Source: Polymorphobacter fuscus (GTDB lineage Bacteria; Pseudomonadota; Alphaproteobacteria; Sphingomonadales; Sphingomonadaceae). Taken from it: 64,000 bases of DNA. The translations under genes were made by a program, and so were the position numbers. The stretch is from assembly GCF_011927825.1 (NCBI RefSeq), contig NZ_JAATJI010000002.1, forward strand, positions 496,001 through 560,000. The letters run 5' to 3'. The notes under the pieces were generated by a model. The model had not been told where the DNA came from and searched no databases. It worked only from the letters and a program-made list of their open reading frames with translations. Positions 46,801 through 64,000 of the stretch are shown here, in pieces. The first letter of the stretch is position 1, and the number at the start of each line of letters is the position of its first letter.

Positions 46801-47671
46801 TCAGAAAGCAAATTCTGCAGGCGAAGGCGCAAGTCGACTAATTCTCGAAGAGTCTGACACCGACAACATTCGGACAATCTCCTTAGCCGGCGCCGAGCCA
46901 GGCCGTGTCGATCTCGATCTTGCTGAGGAAAGCTCCAAGCCCGCTGCGCCTTTGGATGATGCAGAGCGCAAGGGTGCTAAAGACGAAGAGCCGCTTGCTA
47001 ATGAACCAAATCCCCAGGCCGACAAGGACCTGGCGGCTCGATCCGAGGTGCTCGACGGAGGTGCCCCGGACGCAGGTGAAAAGGCGTTTACTTCGACCAA
47101 GGCTGGCCAATCGGCTTCGCGCCCAATCTTGTCGGTGCGAACGCCCGTTGATGCGGCAGAGGCACGAGTATCATATGTTCAGCGCGTGGTTTTTGAGCAA
47201 TACGGACCACGCGACTGGGCCATATTCGAGCAGTATGCCCGCGACGCGGCCATAGCGCGGCTCGAGGTTCAGGATCCATATTGCTGCGCAGATGAGCAGG
47301 CGCGGGGACGCCTCGTCAACTTTATCGGTCGGTTTCAGCAGCTCGCTTCGGACATCGCTGCCGTTCATATTGTGGCGTTCGACGCGGACTCGGTTCAGAC
47401 AAGAGACGTTGAGAGCACAAACGATCAGCGCAAGGATCTTGAACAGCGTTGGAATCGCCTGCTCTCGTCTGTGCCGCTGCACCTTTCACAGAAGTCGCGG
47501 CGATCCGTTGGCGATTTGCACGACCGCTACGTCAAGGCCAGGCTTGGCAATGGGGATACCGTCATCTGGGACTTGGGCCGCGGAATTGACGGGGTCATGA
47601 ACGCCCGCTGGTCCTGCGTCGTCAATGCCTTCTATGACCGGTCGGCGCCGGGATCACAGTTGGTTCACTGA
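43844..47671 (+). CDS. zorD: Zorya anti-phage protein ZorD (SNF2-type helicase with MIT_C-like C-terminus)
   Basis: A 1275-aa SF2/SNF2 ATPase, the effector of type I Zorya. A non-catalytic N-terminal region (about 1-480) precedes the helicase: KPHQVDAFSWL (Q-motif region), Walker A ADDMGLGKT near 515, the DExx-box VYDEVQ near 630, GTPVENRL, and the second RecA domain ending WWNPAVEDQATDRAYRIGQ near 900. An acidic, low-complexity linker (about 985-1100) follows. The last 165 residues contain VQDPYCCADE, VHIVAFDADS and LHDRY...WDLGRGIDG, resembling the phospholipase-D-like MIT_C domain instead of the Mrr-like nuclease reported for this family. Start is one of two adjacent GTG codons (43844 or 43847). 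Longer than the ZorD I remember. Confidence 0.9.
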   Translation: MVTTKFIATQRSDGGEAITLSREHQKGLFRRASSEKVPVSEWPKVAPEAGQAALALARSYDDDGQIIEQESEIALPAHVVARLDEADAFALGLPPATYLTLQLNSDGSLSEGTIKVNTRWVRRGGSPVRADIVGARVREGGRVSRMPEPIFSVFNAALAVNAADDPDSRRAAFAYLREQLGDEIGAGIEADGFLERIRIAYASNFSLNAKTDHGRFDFDPILFSRSVGEAPDGDLIDEADASLLTAQDNQHFQRRFRSQEGGRRSYLLSDGTLLFLDPLLGKALDIVRTKQAGTSRERREFLRSPQRILREELDLDASGDDEAADRLFIETQQFSERVSGIEVWQKPVLPWIKPKLNTWLPEDFGLRIGDPPNARHIELAPGDAEVLAGTVKAAIESGNETVAWRNEDIPATPATLGAARAVADLERQIASERDGQTLSGGARESVEILFLQVGANFEQLDYARLPRSKPESVPFIVPSLPQGLKSEPKPHQVDAFSWLTEAWERRMPGILLADDMGLGKTFQALMFLLWLRSNSAHAKPVLIVAPTGLLKNWQAELAQHVEAGLMGPVVEAFGTNLQSFRLDAGSDIRGGTSRLDSAMWEGAGIVLTTYETMRDYHISFARIPFDVIVYDEVQKLKNPASQMTRAAKALNGRLQIAMTGTPVENRLQDLWSIADTVYPGFLGSSREFESNFPSNDLDRLSELQHRLIDRDDELPPFMLRRMKDEILTGLPKKSARKYAVEMPPVQAEAYDLVLARARALRQSGEQGAMLKVLHMLRGTSLHPSPPRGIVDIDEYIAQSARLKKTFEILEDLQKRGEKTLIFCEDLEMQTFLAMAIQERFNLERRPMCISGKVAGHKRQDMVNTFQGSPVPFDVLILSPKAGGVGLTITAANNVIHLSRWWNPAVEDQATDRAYRIGQTRPVTIHIPMAIHPDSAIGPSSFDQRLDALMERKRSLCRGLLMPPESEHDVEELLCDVLDGHRVQTGDQKANSAGEGASRLILEESDTDNIRTISLAGAEPGRVDLDLAEESSKPAAPLDDAERKGAKDEEPLANEPNPQADKDLAARSEVLDGGAPDAGEKAFTSTKAGQSASRPILSVRTPVDAAEARVSYVQRVVFEQYGPRDWAIFEQYARDAAIARLEVQDPYCCADEQARGRLVNFIGRFQQLASDIAAVHIVAFDADSVQTRDVESTNDQRKDLEQRWNRLLSSVPLHLSQKSRRSVGDLHDRYVKARLGNGDTVIWDLGRGIDGVMNARWSCVVNAFYDRSAPGSQLVH

Positions 47672-47745
47672 ACGCCCAATCTGCCAAATTTGTGACCGGC
47701 TTCCAATTTGGGGCGCCTTCAAGCGAGATCCCGAGCGGTGCCGGT

Positions 47746-50700
47746 TCAAGTGATGACCACGTAGCCAGCCCCGCGGGCACTCACAATTGCGTTGAATTGG
47801 GCCAGTTTAGACAATTGCTTCGTGACTTCTGCGCCAAAATCAAACCGTGCAAATGATGGCGTCCGCCAAGGACCAAAGCCTTGATCAAGGATGATGCGAA
47901 CCGCGTGATTTTGCGCAAAGTGCAACGTCAGCACCCGCCCGTGTCCGGCATTGCGATCATCGAGTTTGACGTCAAAACCAGCAGCCTCAAGCAAGCCGAT
48001 AAGCACCTCGTCGCGGTCTTCGGCAAACTGCCAATCATGATCGGGCGCAAATGGCTGCCGGTCATTCGGGCGAAGTGGATTGGTGATGATTCCGGCGGAG
48101 ATTTTCCCCTGACTGCCAAATTCCTCGTGGATGCCTTTTATCGCGTCGGTGAGAAGACGGACACTGAGCGGTGTCTGCAAGTATCGGTCATTGTACGTAA
48201 TGCGTGCCAGGGGGCCTAAGCCCCCAGCGGCTCGAATGTGCGGAGCAAGCAGTGTCGCAAAGCGGCTACCGAAGCCGATCAGATCTCCGTCCAGTTCCTT
48301 GGAAAGTTCAAGATACTGAGTGCCCGATGCGGGCAGCAAGCTGTCGAGTACAAGCCCGACACTCAGTGGTGCAGGCTCAGCCGTAATTCTGACGGCAGCA
48401 TGTCCCCAATCGGGCGACAGATTGCGGGCATGAAGATCACGCGTCACCCACGCGTACGGCCGTGCTCCATCATTTTGGGCAACGGTGATGGCGCCATTGG
48501 AATAGACAGGCGCCTTGCCGACCCTCAGGTCGAGGTTGAGTGCTTTGGCGGCATCGCGTAGGGCAAGCCGAGCCGCAGGGTCGAGTTTGTCCAGCCATGC
48601 CTGTTCAATCACCAAGCGCACCCGCTTGCCTTTCGTGGTGATCTTTTGGACCGTTGCCTCAAAGAGACCGCGACCTACGTAAGCGACATCCGTTTCAGGA
48701 CCAGCCCAGACCGTAACTGTCTGGGCACCACCTTCAACCGCGTCCACCAGCGCGTCAGCCACGGACGGGCAATGGCGCGCATCGGGTGCCGCCATGTCGG
48801 CTTCATCGATACGTCCGAGCGCCTCAAGAGTGGTCCTGGCCCAGCTCAACGCAGCTTGCCTGTCGATGCTCTCTTGGTGCTTGAACAAGTCCACCGTCAG
48901 CACGCAAGCGGAGCAGCCTTTGACGCAGCCGGGCTCTTGGCAGTCTAAAATTTGTGCCGCCTCATGCAGCAGCTCTTCGAACCATCGCACCGCATTTGGC
49001 GCGAAGCCTGCCCCACCGGCGGCGCGATCGAAAAGGAATAGCGAGTGGGTTTTCTGCCCCAAGATGCTGCGTGCAGATCGTACGGCAATCCCGATTTCGT
49101 TAGTTTCAATTCCTAAGCGCCGGCAGAGGGCTTCTCGTAACGCTGCAACCGCAGCCCAGGCAGCGCCTTCATTCTCGAGACCAACAGGCTGGAGCTCGGT
49201 AACATCAGTGGCCGCCTCATACCCAAGCGCGATGGGAGTGGTGATCTTGAACGACTTCTCGTTGCCTGGGCATAGGCCGGCGGCATTTCGGCGCGTACCG
49301 CGCAAGGGGGCGTGATCCAGCAATGCCTTGGTACCGCTCACAACCGCGGACACGGGCTCAGCTCGGCCACATTCAAGGCAAATATGGTAGCCCTTGTGAC
49401 CCACCCCGCGGGATGAGAAAAACACCAGGCCATCTGCGCTTGCACGCATCCGGCCAAGCTCTGGGGTCACAAATTTTTGCCAGACCGTGTTGCGAACAAC
49501 GATTTGTTCCGGCTCCGGTTCGACGTAGCGTACTTGGTCGGTATCAGCGTGTGGCTTTTCCGCCATATCGACGATGAAGCCGGTCGGTTCAAGAAAACGT
49601 CGGCTCGCACCATTGGGAAGCTCCTCGCGGCAAGACGGGCACGCGTCAGGAACGACAGGCGAACAATCGGCGGCCCCGCAGGACGGGCAAGCCCAGAAGA
49701 TCCGGAGCGACTGCACCTCCCGGGCCTGCGCATCATCAGACGGGCGCTGCCAGTTGAGAGTGACACCTGCGGATCGATAAACGAGCCCATTGACGACGAT
49801 CTCGGAGCCAGGCGCGTAGTCCCTGATAGCGATATCGAGAGTTCGGGAAGGGTAGCTGCGCCGCCGCTGGTTGCCCTCATCCTGCTGGTCCGTGCTGTCG
49901 TACGCAGCGTCATTTCCTGGTTTGTCCTCATGGACAAAGGGCACCACAGCTGTTGGCATCCCATGCGCGGGCAAAAACCCGCGGACGACCAACTCCTTTA
50001 GCAGGTTCTCGCGCGTCAACCGCTTGAGCTGATACTCAAGGCCAGCACGGCCTTCTGGGACATCGACGCTGGCGATCTGAGCCTGCATTAGCTCCCATTC
50101 GGTCACGAAGCTGGCAGCAACCTCCTCAAGCATGCTGGCTGCCGCCACGAAGAGCGACTGATCGCGATCGAGGGCTGTCCCGGTTACCAGACGACCCACT
50201 TCGTTGTGGAGTTCGCTCCAAGTGCTGGGAGCCCCCAGCCACGCAATGCAGGTTCGAACCGGGCTAGCTTCGATCGGAGGTGTACCGGATGTCTCGGGGC
50301 AGCCGAAGAAATCGCCTGCGCGCGTCTTTAGGGCTTCACCGCCTGCGCTCGCGAACCAGCGCGCGAGCAATAAAGCGTTGATATGCCGTTGGACGATGCG
50401 GCGGCTATCAAGTCGGACCTGCGGTGCGCGCGTTTGACGACTGAGATAGCCGGCAGGATCGCGAAAAGCTTCCCGATCGAGCGGAGTGTCACGCGTGTAA
50501 GTCAGCGAACTGGCAAACCCTTGGCGCCGCCGACCGACACGGCCGACCCGCTGGCGGTAGCTGGCAAGCGATGGGGGTACGTTTGTCATCATCACGGCAG
50601 AAACCGAGCCGATGTCGACGCCCATTTCCATGGTGGTCGAGCAGTTGAGGATGTTGATCTCGCCGCGTTTGAACTCCGTCTCGAACTGCCGCAGCCGGTA

Positions 50701-53700
50701 GGCTGGCTGCTGGGCCGAATGCTCGGCTGCGCGCATGTAAGGCGACAGAACAGCCACGCGATCGTGCAAGTTGGTCCAAACCCCGACGTCCCTTAGCGTC
50801 TTCACCTGCTCATCGTCTGATAGCCAGGCTCGTATTGCCAGCACGCCATCTGCGTTGGGGAAAGACACCGGCAGCTGCGGAAGCTGGATTATAGACGGGG
50901 ATGTGTCGGCTGTTTTCAGCCCATCTCGATGGCCATAGGGACTGTAACCCAAGACAGTGGCCGGCAGCACCTGGCCGGTCACCGGACACAGCCATGCATC
51001 GGTGACCGGCGCAATCCGTGCTTTGGCGAAATCCAAAGCGTAGCCCGGTTGTTGCTGCGATGACAAAATGGGGCGCAGGGCAAGCCAGGCGGAATTCAGG
51101 ATACTGTTGATATCGCGCCGATCTTCTCCCTTGTCATGATCAAGCTGCAAGGCTTTTTCGAGGGCAAGAACCAGGTTGGACGGCAATCCGCCGGGCTTGT
51201 TGATTTGGGGCCAAGCAAGTTCCCGCCTCGCTTGGCTTGTCTCACCTGGGGGCAGCAACGTCGAAAGCGGCGTTTGCGACCCGAGCCAGTGCACGTCGTT
51301 CCAATCGGCTCGAATGACGGCTTGAGCCCGCACAACTGTATCGATCATGACGTAGAGCAGGTCTCGCCAATCACCGACGCCTTTCCCTTTGGCCTGCAGC
51401 TCGGGCGGAACGATCTTCACGTTGTCCACGGCATCGAAGCGTAGGCGCGCCAAGCCCATCGTCTCCGGCGTACTGCCGCGGCGCGGCCGGCGATTGAATT
51501 CGCGGAGAAGAAGAAACTCGGCAAAGGCGATCGGGTCCTTGCCATAACGATCCTCTCGCGGGCCCCAGACCTTGGCCATCCAATGATGAATCTCGGGAAG
51601 GGCGGCGAAATGCTTGCGGAACTCAGGCCAGGCAATCCCACCGAGGTTGGGCTGTAACTTCTGAGCCAAGTCAGCTTCACGTGCCTTGATCATGTCCTTG
51701 AGATCGGAAGGCGCGCTTGCTCCTAACTTCAGCGCAAGGCCTTCGAGGGTGGCGATCTCACTTCGGATGGTCCCGATTTCAGGATCCTCGTCGCTGCCAG
51801 CAGCCATGCTGCCTTGGACAGAATGATAAATGATCCCTCTGACGAAGGCTCTTTCTGACGTTGTCTGCAAGCTGGCAGCAAAACGCGCGGAACCTTGCCG
51901 GCTGTCTGTGAACGACAAGAGTTGGCGCCCATCTGCGGGCGCCCTGTAGGCCCCTGGCGTCTCTACCTTTCGCGGCTCTACGCCTTCCAGCAGGACCGGG
52001 GCAGCGTTGCCAATTAGATAGGGGGCGCCGAAACGGATCGGCCGCAGAACAATGCTACGCTTGGGGGTAGCAGACGCATTGCATGCTCCGCAGCTTTCCG
52101 TCTGATAGATGGGGTAGGTGTGGGTGGCAGAAGTTGAACTGTCGTGGCGCACACCGGACATCGGCTCGACATAGGCATCGCGGGCTCCACTCAGTCGGCG
52201 CACCCCGACGGACTGGCGCAGTGCATCGTAGCTCGATGCGGTATTTTCGTCTTGGTCTTGGTCATCGTCGCCGTCATCGACAAACTCGCGTTCCCTAAGC
52301 GCTGCGAATTCGTCCAGAACGGGCGGGGTGTAGCGGGCCTGCAATCGCCCTTCTCGTTCTTCGCAGTCCAGATACGGCTCGCCGCATTCACTGCAGGTGA
52401 GAATCTCTAGAACCGGCGCCTTGCATGTCGCGCAGTTGTCAGTGCGCTCCACTGATATGGCTCCATAGGGCCATCCAGCTGGCTGGTCAGCGCAGTTGGG
52501 ATTTATACAACTCCAAAGGCCCGGCACCGCGCGCAAGAACCCGTGAATGCGCAGCGGCAGCAGCGGCCCACGCTGGCGATCTTGATCGTTTGCGATGGCC
52601 TCGATGACTTGGTCGAGCGGCTGTCCGACCGGTTTCAAAAGCCGGGCAGCCTGCGCCAGCGGTACGGGCTTGCATTCAGCTTCCCGAATAAATGCCTGAA
52701 CAGCTGGACTAGCCGCGACGCGGTCTCGGTTTGTCAGGTCGACTGTGCTCAGAGACGACGAGAGGGCGGGCTCCGGCAGCAGTATTTCTTCACGTTTGCC
52801 TAGTACGACATGGACTTTGCGCTCATCTGTGCCCGAAATATCCCGCAAGAACCGCCGCAGCTCGTCAGTGACATCCATCCCTTCGCCGCCGATCGTGGCC
52901 GATGTCGCCACGAACCGCACTTGCTCGGCGGTCACACCAAACGTCAGCAGGACCCGCCGTAGCAGAAGTGCAATCTCGGCGGCCGATGAACCCACATAGC
53001 TGTGTGCCTCGTCGATGATAATCCAGCGCAACGTGCCCTGGCTTTTCTCAATCAGCGGCCGATCGATCCGGCGCACGAGCATATACTCGAGCATGGCAAC
53101 GTTAGTCACAAGGATAGGCGGCGGATCACTGCGAAGCGTTGCGCGATCAAGCACTTGTTCAGGCCGAACCTTGTCTTGGGCCCGCAATCTTTCCTGCGTC
53201 AAACCATTGTAGAGGCCAAAACGCACCTTGCCATCGAACGGGGCGGTCCACGCTCGCAGTCGTTCTTGCTGGCTCGCAATCAGGGCATTCAGGGGATAGA
53301 GAGCGATTGCCCGCACACCCTGCAATCGACCGGCCTGCTCAGCTTCACAGGCAAGATCGTGCAGCAGCGGCATCACGAAGCATTCGGTTTTGCCAGAACC
53401 TGTGCCGCTCGACACCAGCACTGAACGCCGATCGGGTGCCGTCAAATGTTCCCAAGCAGCGATCTGGTGGCGGTATGGCTGGGCATCGGGCGGAAAGCGA
53501 TACTCACCTGCGCTCTCGCTCGAAATCGCGCTAATAACTTTGGGGTGGAGAAGGGAGCCCGCGCAATCGGCAAAGGTGCGTCCCTCCACTTCAAATGGCG
53601 CAGCGCCTTCGATCACCGGCTCGCGCACGAGCGCGCCTTCACTCACATCGCGTGATCCTAACCGGCGGCGGATTTCAGCAGCCAGCGCGCGGTGATTGAG

Positions 53701-53811
53701 CCCTGACCGGCCGAGGACGGCTTCAACGGTCCGCTCCCGGATCAACTCCATGGTCTTTAATGGGCCCGTTACAGGGCGCATTGGCAGCATCGGAGCATCT
53801 GTTTCAGCCAC
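47746..53811 (-). CDS. druE: Druantia anti-phage protein DruE (DEAD/DEAH helicase, DUF1998)
   Basis: A 2021-aa helicase of the Druantia system. The N-terminal RecA domain has Walker A SSGTGSGKT (about 134-142), VTNVAMLEYMLVR and the DEAH box WIIIDEAHSY near residue 265, then SATIG. Zinc-ribbon Cys clusters follow (CATCK, CSECGEPYLDC, later CPSCGAADC and CPSC). The second RecA domain holds STTMEMGVDIG and QRVGRVGRR. The DUF1998 region is near 1600-1700 (FLFDRAAGGAGF, then CVKGCSACVL). The C-terminal 300 residues include VTVWAGPE and LDQGFGPW, possibly PLD-like. GTG 53811 abuts the druH stop with no spacer. Size and pairing with druH identify type III Druantia, not DISARM DrmA/B. Confidence 0.88.
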   Translation of the reverse strand: MAETDAPMLPMRPVTGPLKTMELIRERTVEAVLGRSGLNHRALAAEIRRRLGSRDVSEGALVREPVIEGAAPFEVEGRTFADCAGSLLHPKVISAISSESAGEYRFPPDAQPYRHQIAAWEHLTAPDRRSVLVSSGTGSGKTECFVMPLLHDLACEAEQAGRLQGVRAIALYPLNALIASQQERLRAWTAPFDGKVRFGLYNGLTQERLRAQDKVRPEQVLDRATLRSDPPPILVTNVAMLEYMLVRRIDRPLIEKSQGTLRWIIIDEAHSYVGSSAAEIALLLRRVLLTFGVTAEQVRFVATSATIGGEGMDVTDELRRFLRDISGTDERKVHVVLGKREEILLPEPALSSSLSTVDLTNRDRVAASPAVQAFIREAECKPVPLAQAARLLKPVGQPLDQVIEAIANDQDRQRGPLLPLRIHGFLRAVPGLWSCINPNCADQPAGWPYGAISVERTDNCATCKAPVLEILTCSECGEPYLDCEEREGRLQARYTPPVLDEFAALREREFVDDGDDDQDQDENTASSYDALRQSVGVRRLSGARDAYVEPMSGVRHDSSTSATHTYPIYQTESCGACNASATPKRSIVLRPIRFGAPYLIGNAAPVLLEGVEPRKVETPGAYRAPADGRQLLSFTDSRQGSARFAASLQTTSERAFVRGIIYHSVQGSMAAGSDEDPEIGTIRSEIATLEGLALKLGASAPSDLKDMIKAREADLAQKLQPNLGGIAWPEFRKHFAALPEIHHWMAKVWGPREDRYGKDPIAFAEFLLLREFNRRPRRGSTPETMGLARLRFDAVDNVKIVPPELQAKGKGVGDWRDLLYVMIDTVVRAQAVIRADWNDVHWLGSQTPLSTLLPPGETSQARRELAWPQINKPGGLPSNLVLALEKALQLDHDKGEDRRDINSILNSAWLALRPILSSQQQPGYALDFAKARIAPVTDAWLCPVTGQVLPATVLGYSPYGHRDGLKTADTSPSIIQLPQLPVSFPNADGVLAIRAWLSDDEQVKTLRDVGVWTNLHDRVAVLSPYMRAAEHSAQQPAYRLRQFETEFKRGEINILNCSTTMEMGVDIGSVSAVMMTNVPPSLASYRQRVGRVGRRRQGFASSLTYTRDTPLDREAFRDPAGYLSRQTRAPQVRLDSRRIVQRHINALLLARWFASAGGEALKTRAGDFFGCPETSGTPPIEASPVRTCIAWLGAPSTWSELHNEVGRLVTGTALDRDQSLFVAAASMLEEVAASFVTEWELMQAQIASVDVPEGRAGLEYQLKRLTRENLLKELVVRGFLPAHGMPTAVVPFVHEDKPGNDAAYDSTDQQDEGNQRRRSYPSRTLDIAIRDYAPGSEIVVNGLVYRSAGVTLNWQRPSDDAQAREVQSLRIFWACPSCGAADCSPVVPDACPSCREELPNGASRRFLEPTGFIVDMAEKPHADTDQVRYVEPEPEQIVVRNTVWQKFVTPELGRMRASADGLVFFSSRGVGHKGYHICLECGRAEPVSAVVSGTKALLDHAPLRGTRRNAAGLCPGNEKSFKITTPIALGYEAATDVTELQPVGLENEGAAWAAVAALREALCRRLGIETNEIGIAVRSARSILGQKTHSLFLFDRAAGGAGFAPNAVRWFEELLHEAAQILDCQEPGCVKGCSACVLTVDLFKHQESIDRQAALSWARTTLEALGRIDEADMAAPDARHCPSVADALVDAVEGGAQTVTVWAGPETDVAYVGRGLFEATVQKITTKGKRVRLVIEQAWLDKLDPAARLALRDAAKALNLDLRVGKAPVYSNGAITVAQNDGARPYAWVTRDLHARNLSPDWGHAAVRITAEPAPLSVGLVLDSLLPASGTQYLELSKELDGDLIGFGSRFATLLAPHIRAAGGLGPLARITYNDRYLQTPLSVRLLTDAIKGIHEEFGSQGKISAGIITNPLRPNDRQPFAPDHDWQFAEDRDEVLIGLLEAAGFDVKLDDRNAGHGRVLTLHFAQNHAVRIILDQGFGPWRTPSFARFDFGAEVTKQLSKLAQFNAIVSARGAGYVVIT

Positions 53812-56800
53812 TCACGAATATCCTTGCAGGGAGACGGCAAACGCCTCTGAGAACCAAGTGGGAAAGGTCCGTTCGATCAACTTAAAGTGCTGAATATCAC
53901 TTGGCGTAGGGTTCCACTCGCCGCGGACAGCGAGGGCTGCGGCACAAGGTGCGTCCAGCGTGTCGTAATACTGCTGGTTAAATCGCTGGAAGTAGGCAGG
54001 CAGCGCCGTGGCGAGACGGGCCCTGTATCGTGTGCCGTGGGTAGTTTGGATCTGTTGCACTGCATGTCGCATGAAGGCCTGTGCGGCATCCCCTAGCGGG
54101 ACGGCATCGCATTCGCCGAGCACCGGCGCCAGCAACGGCTGGCGTTCGCTGATGGCCTTCCTCGCCATTTCAATGCGCTGCAGGGAAAAGCGTGGGGCAT
54201 CAGCGCCCAAATCCTTGAACAGTTCCATACTGGCCTGGCCAAAGGCTTGTTCGGCAGCTTTCCAATGGCATTTGGCGATCGTGAACCAGGCAAAAGGCAA
54301 GCCAAAAGCCAGGCCCATCACCGCATCGCGCTGATCCGGCTGCGCGCAATATGCGAGGCGGGCCAGGACGTCCGGAAATGCCGGCAGCTTGGTAAGCACG
54401 TTAAAGGTTACAGGGGGCAGGCCCTTCAGGCTTTCCACCAGCTTGAGCAATTCCGCCAAGGCAGCAGCTGATTCCGGTTCATCGCTTCCAGCAAGTTTCA
54501 AGAATTCGGCCAGCGCCTGATCTTGAGCAGCGCCGAAAGGGGCCGCCATTGCCTGCGCGAGTATACCAACGGGCGCTGATCCCGATGGCACCGTCCGGAC
54601 ATATTGGGGCCGGGTCAACACGCGGGTTTCGCGACGCAGATAGACCAGCCAATCGCCGTGCAACTCGTCGGGCAGTGCGATCGGCCGGTGATTGCTGTCA
54701 CTGAGCAATGAGTATGGGCCAAAGCTTTGTTCAACGAGCGGATCGAGGAACGATCTTCCCCAAAGCTCAACGCTGTCGTCCACGATCGCCTCGCTCGCGA
54801 CAAAGCGAGTGCCTTCCTTCTTCAATTCTAAAGGAAATTGCCGGACGTGCCAGTTAGTGTTGATCCCGTTGTTCATGTCGAGGACCACCTCAGCGTCGAT
54901 CGAGGTCGGCAGCAACACACTTGCAATGTCCAATGCGATCGCGCTCATCGGCATTTCTCGCGAGAATGACCACGACATCTCAGCGCGGATCGACGACTTG
55001 GGGTCGCGCAAGTGCGCAAGCAGGACCATGTCCCCTTGATCGACCGCCACCAAGCCAGACAGGTCATCGATGGTCAATATAGACCTGTGGGGCAGGATGC
55101 GACCATCCCAAGTCGCAATAGAAGCTTCGACCGGATAGGCGATCGTCACCATCAGTGGCGTCGCGCTTTGCCAGTCAATCTTGGCCGAAAAGCAGTGCGC
55201 CATAGTTGGCACAGGCTTTGGCAGCCAGCGGTCCCCTTTTGCGGAAGCCTGGACCGGTGCGTCGCCGGCGGGAGAAATGGCGACACCTTCAAAGCCCGTT
55301 AGCTCGAATTCAGCGCCGCTGCTCTTGAAGACGGTCGTGATGTTCGCGGTTACGGGCAAGACTGCGACACGCCGGCGGTCGACCATGATCCCGTCTTGAC
55401 GCAGGCCAAGCTCATAATGGCCGATTGGCAAACTAGCGGGCGCCGGCTTCCACAAGCTGCTTCCTAGTTGCCGGACCACCAGGTTTCCCTCGGCTGATTT
55501 GGAGACGTGCGGCGGTCCTGCAAAAAGGTCGACATCTCCCTCAACGGACGCCCACCGCGGGTGACTGCCAATGAGATCTATTCTGGCCGCCTGATCCTTC
55601 GATTGCCCGCACAAGACCTTGTAAATGTCATTGGTCGGGTCAGTGAGACGCGCGCCGCCTGTGACCCGCCAAATTTTGGTTTGACCGACCCCGGCACCGA
55701 GGTCGGTGATACTGCCTTGGTCCGTCGCAAACACCGCCCAGTTGGCTGGCACTTGCAGGAAAAGCTCAGACTGGCGATAACTACCCGAACCCGAGCCCAC
55801 GACGCGCAATGCCCGTGGTACGTCGATATCGCCCTCTTCGAGTACGCATACCAAAAGCTGACCGCGGCGGGGCTTCCCACCCGGTAAGTCGACTTGAGAG
55901 ATGAGTCGGCTTCCGGCTCGCAAATCGATCTGCAGTGCACAATTGAAGGGTAGAGGCCTAATGCCTCGTGCGTCCCGACTTGACCTTACGCTCCAAGTGT
56001 TTGCGTCGAATGCGGGCGGGTCAAAGAGTGCCAATTCACCCGGCAAATGCTTGGCCATCGCACCGGCTGCGAAGGCGCGAAGGCGTCCATGCGACTTATC
56101 AACTGACGCCATATTTGCGGCTGATATTTCGCCATCCAGGACAAGCCTGACAGCTTCCCGCCAAGCTCCCTCAAATGGATCGCGAAGTAGAAATCTTTCA
56201 ACGGTGACGACCGATCCCTTGATGGCCTCGACCTGGATCAGCGCTTCGATAAGCTTGTCAGCTTCAGCTTCCCCCGTCGAGATCGGTAGGACGTTGTGCC
56301 AATTTGGCTGGTTGAGTTTCAACCAGGAGGCGAGCGGCATACCCTCTGCGTTCGCCGCTGGTTCATAGTCGCGCCGCACCTTGACGATTGCGAACGCTAG
56401 GTCAGCGCAAAGCTGGATGAACTCCTGGTCTTTGAAGACGCCTGGCAGATTGATAGCTTGCTCCTCAGCGAGCGCCAGTGCGTCGATTTCATTGGTTGCT
56501 GCAGACCGCATCAGGCGCTGCACGATCGCCTCGAGGATAGCTTTGGCCCAACCTTGTGCACCTGCTGCGACCGCATATGCCGGGAACCCGCCTTCCCTGG
56601 CTAACGTGGCCAGATATTGATTGCTGGTCTGGCTATAAACCGGCCGGCCCCACTGCTTAAGACCAGAGCGCGTGATATCGCGGAGCACGTTCTGCTCAAT
56701 CTGGCCCGGCTGGGGCAGCCCAAGAACGGATGTAAGGCTATCCCAATTCCGAGAGCCCCCACGATAGGACCTGCGGAACCATTCCGATGCCCAAAGCGCA

Positions 56801-57192
56801 AACAGCCCGGGATTATAACCAGTGTCTAGGCGCTTGTAGCTTCGGTGCTGAGCCAAATCCGCCTGCAAGGCCGAGAAGTTGTTAGCGGTCAACCGGTAAC
56901 CATGGAGTCTGCGCCCATCCGGCGCTGGAAGGCCATAAGCGGTGGCAAAGGGCGTCTTCGGTGTGGATGTCTGTGCGTTGTCCGATGAGTTCGACTTGGG
57001 AGTTACGCCGGGCGTCGCATTGCCCTTCAAGGCATTCCGGCGAACAGCGACGGCAAAGCGCCACTTGCGTGCCCCAGAGCCCAACGCTTCTAGATCCTTG
57101 TCGATCGAGTCCAGCTCGTCCAGGGCAAGGGCTGCCGCGATGCGAGCCCGCCAATAATCGTCTGAATTAAGTGTTTCCTGCTCGCCGTCCAT
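53812..57192 (-). CDS. druH: Druantia type III protein DruH (STY4851/ECs_5259 family)
   Basis: A 1126-aa protein of the STY4851/ECs_5259 family, the hallmark partner of DruE in type III Druantia. No enzymatic motif is apparent. Recognisable pieces are an N-terminal helical part (YWRARIAAALALDELDSIDKDLEAL), LYGYRLTA-like HGYRLTANNFSALQADL, WASEWFRRSYRGG and a beta-rich central half. Identity rests on length, N-terminal blocks and the partner gene. The ATG at 57192 follows GGGGGGAG. Only druH and druE form the unit; their zero spacing implies coupled translation. The molecular role of DruH is unknown. Confidence 0.87.
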   Translation of the reverse strand: MDGEQETLNSDDYWRARIAAALALDELDSIDKDLEALGSGARKWRFAVAVRRNALKGNATPGVTPKSNSSDNAQTSTPKTPFATAYGLPAPDGRRLHGYRLTANNFSALQADLAQHRSYKRLDTGYNPGLFALWASEWFRRSYRGGSRNWDSLTSVLGLPQPGQIEQNVLRDITRSGLKQWGRPVYSQTSNQYLATLAREGGFPAYAVAAGAQGWAKAILEAIVQRLMRSAATNEIDALALAEEQAINLPGVFKDQEFIQLCADLAFAIVKVRRDYEPAANAEGMPLASWLKLNQPNWHNVLPISTGEAEADKLIEALIQVEAIKGSVVTVERFLLRDPFEGAWREAVRLVLDGEISAANMASVDKSHGRLRAFAAGAMAKHLPGELALFDPPAFDANTWSVRSSRDARGIRPLPFNCALQIDLRAGSRLISQVDLPGGKPRRGQLLVCVLEEGDIDVPRALRVVGSGSGSYRQSELFLQVPANWAVFATDQGSITDLGAGVGQTKIWRVTGGARLTDPTNDIYKVLCGQSKDQAARIDLIGSHPRWASVEGDVDLFAGPPHVSKSAEGNLVVRQLGSSLWKPAPASLPIGHYELGLRQDGIMVDRRRVAVLPVTANITTVFKSSGAEFELTGFEGVAISPAGDAPVQASAKGDRWLPKPVPTMAHCFSAKIDWQSATPLMVTIAYPVEASIATWDGRILPHRSILTIDDLSGLVAVDQGDMVLLAHLRDPKSSIRAEMSWSFSREMPMSAIALDIASVLLPTSIDAEVVLDMNNGINTNWHVRQFPLELKKEGTRFVASEAIVDDSVELWGRSFLDPLVEQSFGPYSLLSDSNHRPIALPDELHGDWLVYLRRETRVLTRPQYVRTVPSGSAPVGILAQAMAAPFGAAQDQALAEFLKLAGSDEPESAAALAELLKLVESLKGLPPVTFNVLTKLPAFPDVLARLAYCAQPDQRDAVMGLAFGLPFAWFTIAKCHWKAAEQAFGQASMELFKDLGADAPRFSLQRIEMARKAISERQPLLAPVLGECDAVPLGDAAQAFMRHAVQQIQTTHGTRYRARLATALPAYFQRFNQQYYDTLDAPCAAALAVRGEWNPTPSDIQHFKLIERTFPTWFSEAFAVSLQGYS

Positions 57193-57452: not shown

Positions 57453-57785
57453 TCAACCGCCGGTGAGACAGGCTTTGTCAAACGCCGCTTCGAGGCCAGT
57501 GTTGGAGCCGCGAACGCCAGCAACCACCTTCTTCGCCCATTCAAAATACTCCCAGCGCCTTTCGTCCGACCAGTCCGCCGGTGGCGTGGTGGCGAGGTCG
57601 CGCAGGTTGCAGGTCTTGTCGGCGAGCTTGACCAGTTTGGCTCGCGGCGAGGCACGCGCGGCGTGCTCGATCTGCAATAGCTTGCGCTCGGCTTTGTCGA
57701 GCGACTTTTCGTCAGTCACCTCGGCGACGACGTCGGCGATCTCGCGGCCAAAGGCGCCGACCAGCTCCTCGTATGAACCTGTCAC
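57453..57785 (-). pseudogene. 5'-truncated RelA/SpoT-like HD-domain (p)ppGpp hydrolase fragment
   Basis: A 110-residue open frame matching the C-terminal two thirds of a small HD-domain phosphohydrolase of the MESH1/SpoT-hydrolase type: EELVGAFGREIADVVAEVTDEKSL, KLVKLADKTCNLRDL and RRWEYFEWAKKVV. The N-terminal part carrying the metal-binding His and HD residues is missing; upstream of GTG 57785 the frame reads unrelated residues. The fragment lies between druH and a peptidase-like gene on the opposite strand, so its loss probably followed an insertion or rearrangement here. It could still be translated but would lack the HD active site. Confidence 0.7.
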
Positions 57786-57853
57786 GCTGCAGGCATTGCA
57801 TCGATCTCGAAAACGTGTGCCAAAGCAGGCATCTGAGGGGGCCAGTTGTTCTG

Positions 57854-58537
57854 ATGAGAAAACCTAAAACCGTTCAGGGTCTGACCGACCTGGGCCGCGT
57901 TCGCTTGTCGAAGAGCTTCTTTCTGCGCGATTTCTTGTATTCGGATATCGCCGCCATTCACGGACTTTCGAACATCCCCGACGATCCTGATTTAGCTATC
58001 AAGACTGGAACACGCCTTTGCGAGGATATTCTCGAGCCCCTTCAGGACACGTTTGGGCGGATCGCCATCCGGTCGGCGTACCGCTCCGCCCAGGTTAACG
58101 GATTGGGCAACCAGATGATGCGCGAAGGGAAGGGCGGCTATAACTGCGCGACAAACGCTGACAATGCCGCCGGCCATATCTGGGATATGGCTGCTGCCGA
58201 CGGCAGGATCGGCGCCACCGCCTGCATCGTCGTTCCGGCATTCTGGGACGCATTTCAGGAACCCGGAGACTGGCAGAAGCTCGCCTGGTGGGTCCACGAT
58301 CATTTGCCCTACTCCGGGATGTATTTTTTCCCGAAGTTTTGGGCGTTCAATGTGACATGGAGCGATCAGCCAAAGAGACAAATCAGGAGCTATCCCGTGC
58401 CGACAGGTACGTTGACCAAGATGGGCATGGAAAACAATTTGGGCAGTCACGAGGATCAGTGGCGCGGCATAGTCGATATATCGCAATCAGTACGCAGTCT
58501 TGTATCGGAGATTCACGCAGGTCGAAATCCGCTCTAA
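57854..58537 (+). CDS. Peptidase M15-like protein of unknown role
   Basis: A 227-aa protein with a zinc-peptidase flavour: RIAIRSAYRSAQVNGLGNQ resembles the RS(A/G)YRS...N block of M15 D,D-carboxypeptidases, AAGHIWDMAAADG could be the H...D metal pair, and WVHDHLPYSGMYFFP a later His motif. Spacing deviates from the canonical SxHxxGxAxD, so family membership is tentative. No signal peptide, so it would act inside the cell unless exported otherwise. ATG 57854 is used; the longer frame from 57773 overlaps the HD fragment. It lies convergent to, and 3 bp from, the frameshifted helicase gene end. Confidence 0.55.
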   Translation: MRKPKTVQGLTDLGRVRLSKSFFLRDFLYSDIAAIHGLSNIPDDPDLAIKTGTRLCEDILEPLQDTFGRIAIRSAYRSAQVNGLGNQMMREGKGGYNCATNADNAAGHIWDMAAADGRIGATACIVVPAFWDAFQEPGDWQKLAWWVHDHLPYSGMYFFPKFWAFNVTWSDQPKRQIRSYPVPTGTLTKMGMENNLGSHEDQWRGIVDISQSVRSLVSEIHAGRNPL

Positions 58538-58540
58538 AAT

Positions 58541-61139
58541 CTAATACGGTATTTCGCAATCGTCGAAATCGATGGGATTTGGACTGCTTGGTGTAATTGA
58601 GCTGCTTTCTGTACGGGGATTTGGGTTCAGGATTTCAGGTCGTCGGAAGACCAGTTCCGCCATAAGTTTCGAGGTATGACGGCACCGAGGGTAGTTCGAG
58701 CAGCCCCGGAATTCGCCGTATCGGCCCGATATTTTTTTGAGGGTGCCAACCCTGCAAGTTGGACAATAAACGGCCCTTTCCCCATCGACTGCCTCAATTG
58801 CAATACAACCGTCGGTTTCCATCTCGATCAGGAATCGAGAGACTTGGTCAAGGCCGGTATAAATCCAGACTTCTCGCCTCGCACGCGTCAGGGCCACATA
58901 AAAGAGGCGCCGTTCTTCAGCCATAGGGAAGGGATCGGGTGCTGGCATCGGGATTTGCAAGAGACTGTCGTCTTGGATCTGGCTTGGGAAGCCTTTTGGC
59001 CCTTCTTTCACATTTAGAAGCACAACAAACTCTGCCCAGCCCCTTCGCTGAGTGGATCGTCCGGAAGTCTATCGCCAGCCTGTCTCTAAACATCCGCTGC
59101 CATCGCGCGATTTCGGCGGGCTTGTCCGACCTATATCGGCCAAGGATCATCACGCGGACGAGATTGCTCGTTCCAGAATGGTGGTTCGCATCCGCCGAAT
59201 GATATGCCTTGTTGAGCTGGCTTTCCAGATGTCGGGAGGCAGTGTCAACGCCGGCAAAGCCAAAGGCGAACACAGATTGTCCCTTCAGCAGGCTTGTAGT
59301 TTTAACTTCCTTCTTAATTTGAGCCGGGTTCTTCTGAATAAATGCACTCGATGCGTCGCAGAGGGTTTGAGGAAACCGGAACGTTGTTCCCAAAGCCAAG
59401 CGACTTGAATTCGAGAAATTGCGTTCAAATTCGTTCATGACCGATATGTCGGCGCCAGCAAACCGGTTGATGCCCTGCCAATCGTCTCCGACAGCACAGA
59501 GGTGAATTCCCTCACGTTGCGCTGTCAACGCTTTGAGGAGCCGGATGCGTGCACGGGAACTGTCTTGGAACTCGTCGGCCAAAACCATCTGGAAGGGGCT
59601 AACGTACCGGCCGGATTCGACATGGGCGGCAGCTTCTAGGAGCATGTCATCGAAGTCTATGCTCTGCTCCCGTTCAAGCCTTCGCTGCCACTCGCCCGCG
59701 ATTGCAAGGTAGAGCGACAGAAAGGTACGAATGCGAGCGGGGAAGCCTGTCTGGCAGTAGCGGTCCGCCGCGACCTGGAGCGCCGCGGTTGTGAGGCCGT
59801 TGCCTTTGACGTGCTGCTGGAAGACGCGGACGAGACGCGCCATCGAACGGTTGTCCATTGGCAATGGTGACTGTGGTCGAATGGAGTGATCGCGCTTTGG
59901 ATCAAGCCCGTGCTTTCGCAATTCGGCTTCGAGTAATCGTGGCATATCGCCGTCGACAAACTGCTGGAATGTCGTCTCAAAAAGCTTGGTGCCTTGCTGC
60001 TTGTGGAGGTCGCGCTTCCAGGCAACACCATCCATATAGCCTACGAACTTCTCAAAACTCGCACCGTTTGATTTTATGGCGAAATGCTCATGGTAAAGGT
60101 TGATGTCAGGATAGAAAAAATCAGGTCGGTATTGACCATGGTACTTGTCGGCCGTTTCGTGTTCATACGGCCTTTCATATTCAAAACGAATGCCCCGGAA
60201 GTAGAGCCAGTTGGCGATGGTGCGTTCGCCTTCACTTTTGACGACTATGCCACTTGCGGTCCGAAAACCTGCGACGCCGTTTGCATAGGAATCGGGTGTT
60301 TCATCGTCACCGGGATTCAAAATGTCACGTGCGTATATGGTTTGAAAGTCATCCCAGGCGGCGGCGAATTTTGAGTCGCTGCGCTCTAAAAAAGTGATGA
60401 TCTCGCTGACAGTTGCCACATCCTGGCCTGGCTCTGCCCATCGAGCAAGAGAAGGCTTTTTTCCCGTTGCAGTGCCGATGACGTGCAACCCGAAAGCATG
60501 AAACGTCTCTGCGACGACCCGATCAACTTTCTCGAAAAGCGCCAGGCGTTTTTTTACTCGTTGCTTGAGCTCGATCGCAGCATCTTTGTTGAAGGCCAGC
60601 ATTAGGATCTGATCAGGCTCCGCCAGCCCTTGCTTCATGGCGTACCCTGCCTTGGCCACCATTGTAGAGGTTTTACCAGAGCCTGCGGCGGCAACGACCT
60701 GCACAGCGTCATCCATGCAAATGCAGGCATCCATCTGCTCATCCGTGAGTGGAGCCTCCTCGACGGTTGAAAAATACTCCTGAAGTTTGATCTTTTGATC
60801 GACCAGAAACTTCTCGTTGTGCGCTGCGAATTCAGCGAGCAATGCTTTGAGTTTCCACGACCTATTGAGATTCGAATGGACGGTTCCAGTGTCAAACCCG
60901 GGTAGTGGAAAGCCCGCCATGATCCGATGAGCCGTACTTTGCGGAATCCACCGTGAGCGATCAACGCTCGGTTCCCATCGCGCGCGCCAGAGCTTCTGCT
61001 CGTTGTCCTGTTTCTGGCGCCACTCGGCTTCGTTGAAGCGTACAGGTTGAAATCCGCCAGATGACGAGCGCTTGCTGTCTAAGCCAAAAAGGCCGTCGGC
61101 AACGACTGCAGCAGCCGCAAGGACAAGCCACTCAATCAC
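58541..61139 (-). pseudogene. UvrD/Rep-type helicase with C-terminal zinc finger, frameshifted
   Basis: A superfamily 1 helicase split by one frameshift. The first frame (58917-61139) runs from an N-terminal hydrophobic segment through Walker A AAAGSGKT (about residue 152), LMLAFNKDAA, an inserted nuclease/restriction-like block (FRGIRFEYERPYEHE), DEFQDSS and TTFRFPQTL to IHSAKGL near 700, then continues into nonsense. The second frame resumes at EFVVLLNVKEG and carries motif VI (FYVALTRARREV) and a topoisomerase-type C4 zinc finger (CPTC...CSNYPRC). Joining them gives about 865 aa. The break is near 59033-59039. Compared with KGLxxEFVV in relatives, two bases appear missing. It is 28 bp downstream of the next helicase gene. 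Confidence 0.75.
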
Positions 61140-61167
61140 AATTCCGTCCAGACGAATTTAGAGCCCG

Positions 61168-63225
61168 TCACGCGCGAAGATCATCGAGAAATTCCGATCC
61201 CGGGCGGACGGCGCTAACCATCAACCCATCGCGTGCCCGGGTGCAAGCCACGTAAAGCAGATGTCGTTCGGTATCGTATGCGGTGGCAAGGTCGGCGTCG
61301 TCACCAACGGCTCGTAAGCGTTCCGGATCAGGCAGGGCATCTTCGTCGCAAGCCATTACAGCTACGGATTTGAATTCAAGTCCCTTGACATCGTGCATCA
61401 ACGCGATGACCGGTGAAGCCGCGTTGCGCGGGTCGAAGCCAGCCATTGAGATCGCCGCTCGTGCCCTTTTTAGCTGGGCATTTCCGCGAACAAGGACAGC
61501 GACTTCCGATGCCATTGCGCCCGTGGTGCAGGCGGTCTCGATGAACTTTGCAACGCCTGCAATTTCCGCTTCTTGGTCCGCGAACAGAGACACGCTCGGC
61601 ACCGGCCCATCGAACACCGAGACAGTACCCCTGCGGCCGTCTTCGACACCGTCCATGTCGGCAATAGTCGCCGGCAGCAGGCGGTCAGCGGAAACGCGGA
61701 TCTGGTGTGAAGTGCGATAACAAACCTTGAGGCAGTGGCTACGCCCGCGGACATCAATCCCGAGCTTCGCCCAGGAAAACGGCAGATGAAAGATGCGCTG
61801 CCCGAGATCGCCGGCAAAGAACAGCGCTTCGCTGCGGCCCTCTCCAGCCTTCGCCAGGAAGCGTGCTTGCGGCACAGTCAGGTCCTGCGCCTCATCGACA
61901 ACGATATGTGTGAACGGCAGCTTCCCGATCGCCGCGGTGCTCAATTGCCCGTAGATCTCCGGCCAGGTTGTCAACTTGCGCTGCGCCAAACGTTCACGCA
62001 CGAAATCGAACACCGCCCAAGCTGCAGTCCGTTGCCGCAAGCCGAGACGTGTCTTGCGTCCAATCCTGGGCACCTCCGCATAGGCAGCTTCCGAACTGAC
62101 CTGCCAGGCATCCACCACCTCGTCCCACTCGTCGAACAGGAATTCAGCCGTCATACAGCTTTCGGGATCAGCATCGAGCGCTGCCTTGATGGCTGCTTGT
62201 ACTTGGCTCGCTGTTGCTAGGTTCGGTTGACCAAAGGCACGTGAGAAAAGCTCATAGGCTGCCTGATCGAGCGCTCGCACTGTAACTCTGGATCTGACCG
62301 CGATCTCCGCTTCGGTCAGGATGTGCAGCTTGCCTTCCAAGGCCGTTGCCAGAGACTTGGAGAAAGTTGTCAGCAGGACGTGCGCGCCTTCATCCTCTCG
62401 GGCCAGATGGACAGCCCGGTGCAACGCCACAATCGTCTTGCCGGTGCCTGCCGAACCCGCCACGCGCGCCGGGCCTGACCATTTCCGTTCCACCAGCGCC
62501 CGTTGTGCCGGATGTAGGAAAACCGCCCATTTTTCGAATGGCTGATCGAGCGCGGCCCGCAGTTCCTCGATGTTGTCGACAGTTCGAAATCGGCGTTGGG
62601 CATCCGGGTGGGTGAACGGATCGGCATCGACAGCCTTCACCGCAATATGGTCCTCCAATCGCCCGCCGGTGGCGTAATCTGTGAGGGCTTCCGCGGCTTC
62701 GGCGGGTAGCTTTGCATAAAGCTGCACCACGTCGTCGAGCTTTGTTTCCCTGACTAGCTTCAGCCAGTCCCGCGGCACACCGACATCGAGCATCTGGTCG
62801 TCGGTCAGAGCAGAGAACGGGTAGCTTGCAGGTGCCGGCTTCGTCTTCGTCTCGATCGGCAGCGCAGCCGAAATGGTCGGCACAACAGGCGCAGCATCGA
62901 CGACGATCGGCATTTCGACAAACTGCATCGCGCCGGTGCGTTCATGGGCCACGACACGTTTTCGTTCTGCCCACCAATATGCGGCGTCATGATGATCAAC
63001 GTACGCCAGCAGTGTCGTCTCACCCTCCTTGTAGAGAATGATGCGCAGGTCACCGCTGACGCGCACCGACCAAAACCCAGGCGCCTTTTCTATCCGGTGC
63101 ATCTGAAGGCCATTGCCGCGAGGATCGAGCTGCAGATCGAACGCTGCCAGTTTGGCCTGCTTCTGTTCGGGCGCCGCCAGACGCCCAAGCGCGTCGGTGA
63201 ACGTAGAGGCGTAGAGCAAGGTCAT
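61168..63225 (-). CDS. UvrD-type helicase fused to an N-terminal RelE/ParE-like toxin domain
   Basis: A 685-aa superfamily 1 protein. Residues 1-90 have the RelE/ParE pattern: an opening helix pair, GLQMHRIEKAPGFWSVRVSGDLRIILYKEG and a final YVDHHDAAYWWAERK. After a linker (about 91-200) come the helicase motifs: GSAGTGKTIVAL near 260, TFSKSLA, VVDEAQDL, GDLGQRIFH, CYRTSHQIR, VKGLEFKSVAVMACDEDALP and LLYVACTRARDGLMV. All SF1 motifs are intact. The ATG overlaps the stop of the 233-aa gene by 4 nt (ATGA), so both are made together. RelE-type folds on helicases are known from database annotations; whether this one cleaves mRNA or serves as a ribosome/nucleic-acid adaptor is unknown. Confidence 0.85.
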   Translation of the reverse strand: MTLLYASTFTDALGRLAAPEQKQAKLAAFDLQLDPRGNGLQMHRIEKAPGFWSVRVSGDLRIILYKEGETTLLAYVDHHDAAYWWAERKRVVAHERTGAMQFVEMPIVVDAAPVVPTISAALPIETKTKPAPASYPFSALTDDQMLDVGVPRDWLKLVRETKLDDVVQLYAKLPAEAAEALTDYATGGRLEDHIAVKAVDADPFTHPDAQRRFRTVDNIEELRAALDQPFEKWAVFLHPAQRALVERKWSGPARVAGSAGTGKTIVALHRAVHLAREDEGAHVLLTTFSKSLATALEGKLHILTEAEIAVRSRVTVRALDQAAYELFSRAFGQPNLATASQVQAAIKAALDADPESCMTAEFLFDEWDEVVDAWQVSSEAAYAEVPRIGRKTRLGLRQRTAAWAVFDFVRERLAQRKLTTWPEIYGQLSTAAIGKLPFTHIVVDEAQDLTVPQARFLAKAGEGRSEALFFAGDLGQRIFHLPFSWAKLGIDVRGRSHCLKVCYRTSHQIRVSADRLLPATIADMDGVEDGRRGTVSVFDGPVPSVSLFADQEAEIAGVAKFIETACTTGAMASEVAVLVRGNAQLKRARAAISMAGFDPRNAASPVIALMHDVKGLEFKSVAVMACDEDALPDPERLRAVGDDADLATAYDTERHLLYVACTRARDGLMVSAVRPGSEFLDDLRA

Positions 63226-63923
63226 GTTTTCACGTCATCGTCTTCGTACTTGCCGACCACCCAGATGAAGCTTTGGATGTCGATATTGTCTCTTGCCTCC
63301 AGCGAGCTGATCGCAGCGCGCGTCGCGCCGACGAGGTCAAGCAGGCTTTCATAGGTTTGAGCGTTGATCTCGGCCTTGTAGTCATCGTGAAAATGGTGGC
63401 CAACGCGCTCCGAAAAGTCGACCGTCACGAGTGGTTTCAAGAACATGTGCTGCTGGAAATCCCAAAGATTAGGGAAATACGTCGCCATCGGCCATGAAAT
63501 CCGGCCATGCGGCTGAACGGCCTTGTCCATGCCACGGCCACCATCTGCAAAATCCCCAAATGCGAAGCGGGCAGCAGACCGCAGGAAGGCGCCGCCATTC
63601 GAGCCGTTCAGCACATCTTTCAGGCGCATGGATTCGAACTGGGAGAGGAGGTTGATCCAGCAGCGTGCATGGGCGACGCGCTGAGCATCGTCATCGCTGG
63701 CATTCATAGCGGCATCGAGCGGCAATACCTTTGCCAATGCCAGTGCTGCATCCACCTTATAGGTTCGCTCCATTGCGACATTCGTGTTGCCGCGGAGACC
63801 GTCCGGCATAAAATCGCAGAAGCGCCTCATGGCGCCGTCGAAGCCGACATAATGAGGATGCAATTTGCCGGCCTCGTTGCGCAGCCGGGCAATCAATCGT
63901 TGTTCGTTGTTGTCGTGAAACAC
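63222..63923 (-). CDS. Protein of unknown family (233 aa) in the helicase operon
   Basis: I do not recognise this protein. It is soluble, has no signal peptide, and is largely alpha-helical in appearance (RLIARLRNEAGKL; AALALAKVLPLDAAM; CWINLLSQFESMRLKDVL; YESLLDLVGATRAAISSLEARDN). The only compact motif is a His/Asp cluster, GHHFHDDYKAEINAQ (about residues 174-188), and HYVGFDGAMRRFCDFMP near the start. GTG 63923 directly follows the TAG of the preceding gene, and the stop overlaps the helicase ATG by 4 nt, so it is translationally coupled to both neighbours. Confidence 0.65.
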   Translation of the reverse strand: MFHDNNEQRLIARLRNEAGKLHPHYVGFDGAMRRFCDFMPDGLRGNTNVAMERTYKVDAALALAKVLPLDAAMNASDDDAQRVAHARCWINLLSQFESMRLKDVLNGSNGGAFLRSAARFAFGDFADGGRGMDKAVQPHGRISWPMATYFPNLWDFQQHMFLKPLVTVDFSERVGHHFHDDYKAEINAQTYESLLDLVGATRAAISSLEARDNIDIQSFIWVVGKYEDDDVKT

Positions 63924-64000
63924 CTAGGAACGCTTGCCGGCAAGGATCACGACGCCGGCAAATCCATACTGCTTGTCGGGCTGCCATCGAATCGTCGCGT
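63924..64000 (-). CDS. 3' end of an unidentified gene cut by the window edge
   Basis: The last 25 codons of an open frame entering from beyond 64000 end at TAG 63924-63926; the visible tail reads TIRWQPDKQYGFAGVVILAG and KRS. It abuts the GTG start of the next gene with no gap, so it belongs to the same operon. Too little is visible to name it. Confidence 0.5.
   Translation of the reverse strand, partial: ATIRWQPDKQYGFAGVVILAGKRS

Follow-up and report, generated by a model that had tools for sequence, protein, structure and literature searches.

How much of a defence system is seen when a tightly packed group of genes runs off the edge of a sequenced stretch? The question is raised by 64,000 nucleotides of Polymorphobacter fuscus DNA (contig NZ_JAATJI010000002.1; G000:C2:496001-560000), termed the window, which ends between positions 58541 and 64000 in a run of minus-strand genes. 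From the window end leftwards these are an open reading frame (ORF) of 233 amino acids (63222-63923), a fusion of a RelE-like part to a UvrD-type helicase (RelE-UvrD) and a zinc-ribbon UvrD helicase. An earlier note on this DNA had taken them, together with a fourth protein cut off at the window end, for a new defence module. The minus-strand genes are real, yet they are no single four-gene module. The stretch probably forms the downstream part of a defence operon of mosaic make-up, whose backbone is a restriction cassette and whose other component is an interrupted module made up of the helicase and a gene termed F268, to which the 233-residue ORF belongs. A type III-like restriction cassette that includes an ArmD-like helicase is the ordinary portion of this operon, and F268 is what sets it apart.

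The contig continues to position 573863, so that the sequence past the window end could be read. Same-strand packing goes on beyond 64000, from an HD_4 gene up to a BPTD_3080 endonuclease (Table 1), so the run does not stop at the window end. The ResIII protein at its head matches NCBIfam restr_BPTD_3080 with 1289.6 bits against a curated cut-off of 800, and the DuOB protein and two DUF488 proteins further down are recognised by PADLOC as the candidate system PDC-M45. Within the window, the 4-base-pair (bp) overlap between F268 and RelE-UvrD (63222-63225) and the 28-bp gap between RelE-UvrD and the helicase (61140-61167) are as first described, but the fourth protein and its 0-bp junction are not, the latter being a TAG followed by a GTG inside F268. 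Known anti-phage systems do adjoin the run, namely Zorya I (ZorA-D) and Druantia III (DruH); DruE, scanned with Pfam only, sits downstream as a Druantia III component. The defence setting of the proposed module stands, but its boundaries were wrongly drawn, RelE-UvrD being part of the longer cassette.

RelE-UvrD closes a type III-like restriction-modification cassette that recurs in other genomes and that begins, beyond the window, with the BPTD_3080 endonuclease. A survey of 385 genomes of the class gave 20 matches at E 1e-60 or better, spread over 18 genomes, the genome under study included. Of these rows, the window copy itself and one other (G122) were left out; the remaining 18 were compared with their neighbourhoods, and setting aside three with less than 1 kilobase (kb) upstream (L107, L129 and L132) leaves 15 informative loci. 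A methyltransferase homologue lies near RelE-UvrD in 14 of the 15 and a BPTD_3080 homologue in 11. RelE-UvrD is on the same strand as the methyltransferase and downstream of it in 12 loci, convergent with it in two (L133, L134) and without it in one; L128, at a contig edge, has the methyltransferase only. On plasmids, where 71 records match RelE-UvrD, the cassette is present in five of six chosen records, with the methyltransferase match spread over two ORFs in L092 and L094. The comparison set consisted of loci containing F268, of which 80 were kept from 94 confirmed, with flanks reaching to about 10-15 kb and some ending at contig edges. A methyltransferase homologue occurs in one of these 80 (L008), which also carries RelE-UvrD. 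Neighbouring genes in unannotated loci were called by a longest-ORF rule, which is error-prone in G+C-rich DNA, and family scans of neighbours covered selected genes.

The slot between endonuclease and methyltransferase is variable, being filled by GmrSD_N in L122 and L127, by REase-ARP in L092 and by a gene annotated DUF3883 in L094. In L123 an SNF2-type helicase, whose best NCBIfam match is DrmD below the cut-off, lies between the methyltransferase and RelE-UvrD. No relative of RelE-UvrD was confirmed in viral contigs, and no text on this cassette stood among the papers listed by literature searches, although BPTD_3080 may be mentioned elsewhere.

Two observations touch on these genes at other places in the same assembly and beyond. 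A second RelE-UvrD (706 amino acids) is encoded in the same genome (L130 12128-16061, G000:C1), after a 383-residue methyltransferase remnant and in a stretch without a BPTD_3080 homologue. Upstream of the BPTD_3080 gene, at the end of contig C2, lies a 271-residue ORF that appears by eye to be of ASCH type (L101 3049-3864); as it extends to where the contig stops, the true start of the operon may lie further out.

The terminal gene had been read as a RelE/ParE-helicase fusion. Pfam finds a UvrD-type helicase domain, the motifs of which look intact by eye in the window copy, and the N-terminus is RelE/HigB-like. Of 13 relatives in the alignment, 10 show PF05015 at E <= 5, the best at 2.5e-6, but the window copy itself (E 0.025, 15.5 bits) falls below the cut-off of 27. 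The best PDB profile match of the RelE part is RelE3 (E 0.29, residues 1-86).

Such a fusion has already been published. According to a preprint (PMC12458937), it is ArmD of ARMADA II, a system in which deletion of any of the four genes, or a change in the ArmD Walker A motif, abolished protection; in E. coli, Zorya II, Druantia III and ARMADA II form an array that is conserved. The likeness is threefold: the last gene encodes a GajB-like UvrD helicase with a RelE-like N-terminus, a methyltransferase and another helicase lie upstream, and Druantia III and a Zorya system are next door. In the window, Zorya I (plus strand) and Druantia III (minus strand) occupy 39794-57192 and converge with their ends 74 bp apart; the parallel with the E. 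coli array may be due to chance or may be functional. RelE-UvrD is about 32% identical over 97% to E. coli plasmid relatives, one of which overlaps the preceding long DEAD/DEAH helicase gene by 4 bp, consistent with ARMADA II. The genes upstream differ, however: here they are a type III-type methyltransferase and a BPTD_3080 helicase-nuclease, not PglX-like and YprA-like genes directly upstream. Membership of ARMADA II was accordingly rejected, as the BrxHII-like helicase, PglX-like methyltransferase and YprA-like helicase were not found directly upstream in the strict order of that system.

The closer counterpart is BPTD_3080 (type III-like) restriction-modification, which shares the endonuclease and type III-type methyltransferase in one run, with RelE-UvrD at the end; it differs in that here the PDC-M45 trio, HD_4 and F268 are inserted before RelE-UvrD and a broken second helicase follows it. 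Both window helicases also match GajB profiles in PADLOC, but Gabija was dismissed, there being no GajA among the matches listed for 20 locus proteins, which for some of them are the best 25 (DruE and the lipoprotein-like ORF lay outside the PADLOC scan). An ArmD-type RelE-UvrD is thus reused at the same terminal position in a second methyltransferase-based system, and this reuse allows its role, whether as a general DNA-clearing motor or as a conditional RNase, to be compared between systems.

The genes on either side of RelE-UvrD are both interrupted. F268 is one gene of 268 codons (63222-64028), interrupted at codon 35 by a TAG (63924-63926) with a GTG directly after it. Because homology upstream of the GTG stays in frame through the TAG as far as an ATG at 64028, the protein of which only the end had been seen is the severed N-terminus of F268, and a fourth gene at the window end was rejected, as was an 80-residue frame at 63757-63999, which is an off-frame reading of F268. 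A search of the genome with the F268 family profile likewise gave one internal TAG. Among 116 homologues of the 233-residue ORF, 106 are 255-290 amino acids long, and the nearest (P0001) has 268 amino acids and is 94% identical. The 233-residue protein is therefore the remainder of a longer one. The full 268-residue protein has no matching family in Pfam, PADLOC or NCBIfam at the limits used.

The zinc-finger helicase fares similarly: its UvrD-type domain (UvrD-helicase, 133.6 bits) and C4 zinc ribbon (Zn_ribbon_Top1, 45.2 bits) are confirmed by Pfam, but it is not one open frame. The ORF at 58917-61139 aligns to residues 1-701 of its relatives and that at 58541-59023 to the part from residue 703 (712 in one relative); the two match successive parts, and hence there is one frameshift near 59030-59040, which separates the front of the helicase from its C-terminal helicase motifs and zinc ribbon. 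Relatives with the frame open across this point exist, and in three of the 80 F268 loci the helicase lies directly downstream of F268, with a 13-bp gap in L010 and L013 and a 4-bp overlap in L036. Decay of the pair may be common, since L034, L035 and L036 contain shortened or divided copies of F268 and the helicase match in the genome of L013 contains one TGA, near a contig end. As both genes are interrupted, the F268-helicase module is probably dead in this strain.

The best surviving alternative, itself unlikely, is that the living strain has both F268 and the helicase in unbroken form, the stop and the frameshift being assembly errors, or that F268 restarted at the GTG works without its N-terminal strands. 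Re-initiation there, giving F268 without its first strands, is possible: the GTG stands directly after the TAG, and distant homologues lack the N-terminal part, most of their rows starting at or after it. Two interruptions of different kinds in neighbouring genes argue against this, as do the short or split copies of F268 and the TGA in the L013-genome helicase, which suggest common decay.

Less probable still is the proposal that F268, RelE-UvrD and the zinc-finger helicase act together as a single new defence system, in which F268 would be the sensor and both helicases would be effectors. It draws on the tight packing of the three genes, on F268-helicase pairs in other loci and on the single run that holds F268 and RelE-UvrD in L008, so that parts of the gene order do recur. 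The whole set, whose failure to recur the earlier note had named as a refuting result, is absent from all 80 F268 loci and from 24 further RelE-UvrD loci; RelE-UvrD instead tracks the methyltransferase and BPTD_3080 genes, and both F268 and the helicase are interrupted here. Least credible of all, by a small step, is that RelE-UvrD and its upstream neighbours are an accessory of PDC-M45 and not of the restriction cassette, for although the PDC-M45 genes stand between methyltransferase and RelE-UvrD here, DuOB or DUF488 is the best match of no ORF in 30 loci at E 1e-5, whereas RelE-UvrD and the methyltransferase occur together in most of the 30.

Several facts nevertheless weigh against a mosaic of a cassette backbone and a dead second module. 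The stop and frameshift are read from the assembled sequence. RelE-UvrD occurs without either methyltransferase or BPTD_3080 homologue in L138, with the methyltransferase only in L130 and L135, and without the cassette on plasmid L091; it is therefore not tied to the cassette. The relative on the E. coli plasmid, which shares about 32% identity, follows a long DEAD/DEAH helicase gene and not the cassette, and in the genome under study the PDC-M45 genes, HD_4 and F268 separate the methyltransferase from RelE-UvrD. As L008 has F268 and RelE-UvrD in one operon-like run, a link between F268 and the cassette may exist nonetheless. Finally, in the ARMADA II preprint, a change in the Walker B motif of ArmD lost only part of the activity (PMC12458937).

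If the mosaic reading is correct, a mechanism can be outlined, all biochemical steps of which we infer, while the gene content, the recurrence of the cassette and the interruptions in this assembly are observed. The backbone runs from the BPTD_3080 endonuclease through a nuclease slot of changing content, filled here by GmrSD_N and REase-ARP, to the type III-type methyltransferase, small genes that vary and, last, RelE-UvrD. The methyltransferase would mark host DNA and the BPTD_3080 protein would attack unmarked incoming DNA. RelE-UvrD would act, like ArmD of ARMADA II, as an ATP-driven helicase that unwinds or clears unmarked DNA, with its RelE part perhaps a conditional RNase. In the second module, placed around RelE-UvrD, F268 would recognise DNA and the zinc-ribbon UvrD helicase would be the motor. 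More generally, what looks like a new module at the edge of a window may turn out to combine the tail of a longer operon with fragments of broken genes.

F268 is rare, being found in three of the 385 class genomes at E 1e-30, the genome under study included, and a collection of phage records gave no match. When 36 relatives were compared with Pfam, scattered single-member matches were obtained, the best at E 0.0043. The surroundings of F268 were searched with 19 queries (RelE-UvrD, the helicase, cassette genes, Druantia, Zorya, DISARM, Gabija and MmeI) at E 1e-20 and at least 100 bits within 8 kb. A tested defence gene was found at this distance in 15 of the 31 closest loci and in none of the 49 distant ones. 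The closest (L006-L036) are mostly alphaproteobacterial by title, with Halieaceae (L025) and Chloroflexi (L033) as exceptions, and alphaproteobacterial titles are present among the distant ones as well (L050, L074). Two of the counted loci, L020 and L025, supplied the queries for DISARM and Gabija and are thus self-matches, but both systems were independently named there, by NCBIfam and PADLOC.

In eight of the 15 loci the system is DISARM, and F268 lies co-oriented between its methyltransferase and DrmA genes. The DISARM assignment is backed by NCBIfam for L020 (DrmD, DrmA and DrmB) and for L015 and L027 (DrmA). F268 was rejected as a constant DISARM gene, being present in two of 37 plasmid records with DrmA (both Ensifer adhaerens) and in neither of two genomes with DrmA. 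The other seven are the three helicase pairs, the BPTD_3080 cassette of L008, Gabija (L025), Zorya (L032) and GmrSD_N/DruE-like genes (L017). The C-terminal signature of F268 is also found within AAA_5 (McrB-like) ATPases (L081, L088-L090). Eight prophage loci were found, and in all five that were inspected (L151, L152, L155, L156 and L158) F268 opposes the strand of most of its neighbours, which are virion genes by eye. On these inspected prophage contigs F268 is single and apparently in the same place, possibly as cargo acting alone.

The fold of F268 has a weak likeness to 8-oxoguanine DNA glycosylases (best Foldseek E 0.38). Comparison with the Ogg-HhH profile PF22175 by hhalign gave probabilities of 0.24% and 0.16% and hence no sequence support, and a sequence-profile search of solved structures gave nothing better than E 0.57. 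In an overlay made by eye, W179 and K198 stand at the places of the catalytic Lys and Asp, so that F268 may differ from HhH-GPD (Ogg2 type) glycosylases in lacking those residues. Glycosylase-based defence is known from Brig1 (PMC11078745), whose structural matches are reported to be uracil DNA glycosylases, and from restriction glycosylases (PMC10273834). The occurrence of F268 within DISARM, ahead of the zinc-ribbon helicase, ahead of a BPTD_3080 cassette, near Gabija and Zorya and alone as prophage cargo, and of its C-terminal signature within McrB-like ATPases, lies behind a tentative suggestion, held with rather low confidence, that it is a portable DNA-recognition subunit common to unrelated defence machines, possibly a glycosylase-fold flipper of modified bases. 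Within or beside several DNA-targeting defence operons, it could be a shared sensor. The papers listed by literature searches included no text on F268, but a family that has no name is out of reach of such a search by name.

Table 1. Features of the run and its continuation past the window end. L004 base p corresponds to window base 56999 + p.
Feature	Coordinates	Strand	Basis or remark
Zinc-ribbon UvrD-type helicase, frameshift-split	58541..61139	-	Pfam, alignment to relatives
Zinc ribbon of helicase	about 58664-58771	-	Pfam
Insertion in helicase	about 59805-60272	-	conserved; nuclease-like conserved residues by eye
RelE-UvrD fusion, 685 amino acids, ArmD-like	61168..63225	-	Pfam, conservation in 26 aligned sequences, neighbourhoods
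RelE/HigB-like part of RelE-UvrD	about 62956-63225	-	Pfam
F268 gene, in-frame TAG 63924-63926	63222..64000 in window, ATG 28 bp beyond	-	116 homologues, frame and stop
HD_4 gene	L004 7069-7629	same as F268	ends 39 bp upstream of F268 ATG
Two DUF488 genes	L004 7671-8102 and 8099-8698	same as F268	
DuOB gene	L004 8695-9369	same as F268	
178-residue gene	L004 9366-9902	same as F268	
Methyltransferase, 954 amino acids	L004 9904-12768	same as F268	PADLOC MTase_III 1170.9 bits
Lipoprotein-like ORF	L004 12808-13365	same as F268	judged by eye
REase-ARP	L004 13362-14363	same as F268	
GmrSD_N	L004 14360-16378	same as F268	
BPTD_3080 endonuclease, ResIII protein, 1027 amino acids	L004 16237-19320	same as F268	NCBIfam restr_BPTD_3080

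The helicase was also considered as DNA helicase IV (PRK11054), an identity rejected with 296 bits for the window ORF and 357.6 for an 883-residue relative against a cut-off of 543. Its insertion showed no link to PDB profiles, the one match, an unrelated one, having E 0.63, and two further close plasmid relatives of the helicase have no F268 match within 8 kb on each side. Convergent with the helicase, and with its end 3 bp away, is a plus-strand gene for 254 amino acids (57773-58537). It gave no match in Pfam, while a relative on a plasmid carries the annotation peptidase M15. Because related genes occur close to F268 in L006 (226 bits) and immediately follow it in L008 (305 bits), this gene may be part of the F268 setting. 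A minus-strand ORF of 110 amino acids (57453-57785) covers only positions 56-135 of the HD_4 profile and is possibly the remnant of an HD gene similar to the complete one past the window end.

Elsewhere, F268 ends 6 bp ahead of an exonuclease I-like gene (RNase_T, Exonuc_X-T_C) in L141 (1396-3690), and an MmeI-type restriction-modification gene is directly downstream of it in L139 (6888-10643, minus strand). The N-terminal part of a distant homologue (L066 9731-10600) scores 20.1 bits against DUF3553, where the cut-off is 20.3. In L140 (26-3264), an Ogg-HhH (PF22175) glycosylase gene lies between genes that resemble TIR/TGT and QueC by eye, with another TIR-like ORF after them, and these genes are possibly a modified-base defence cluster.

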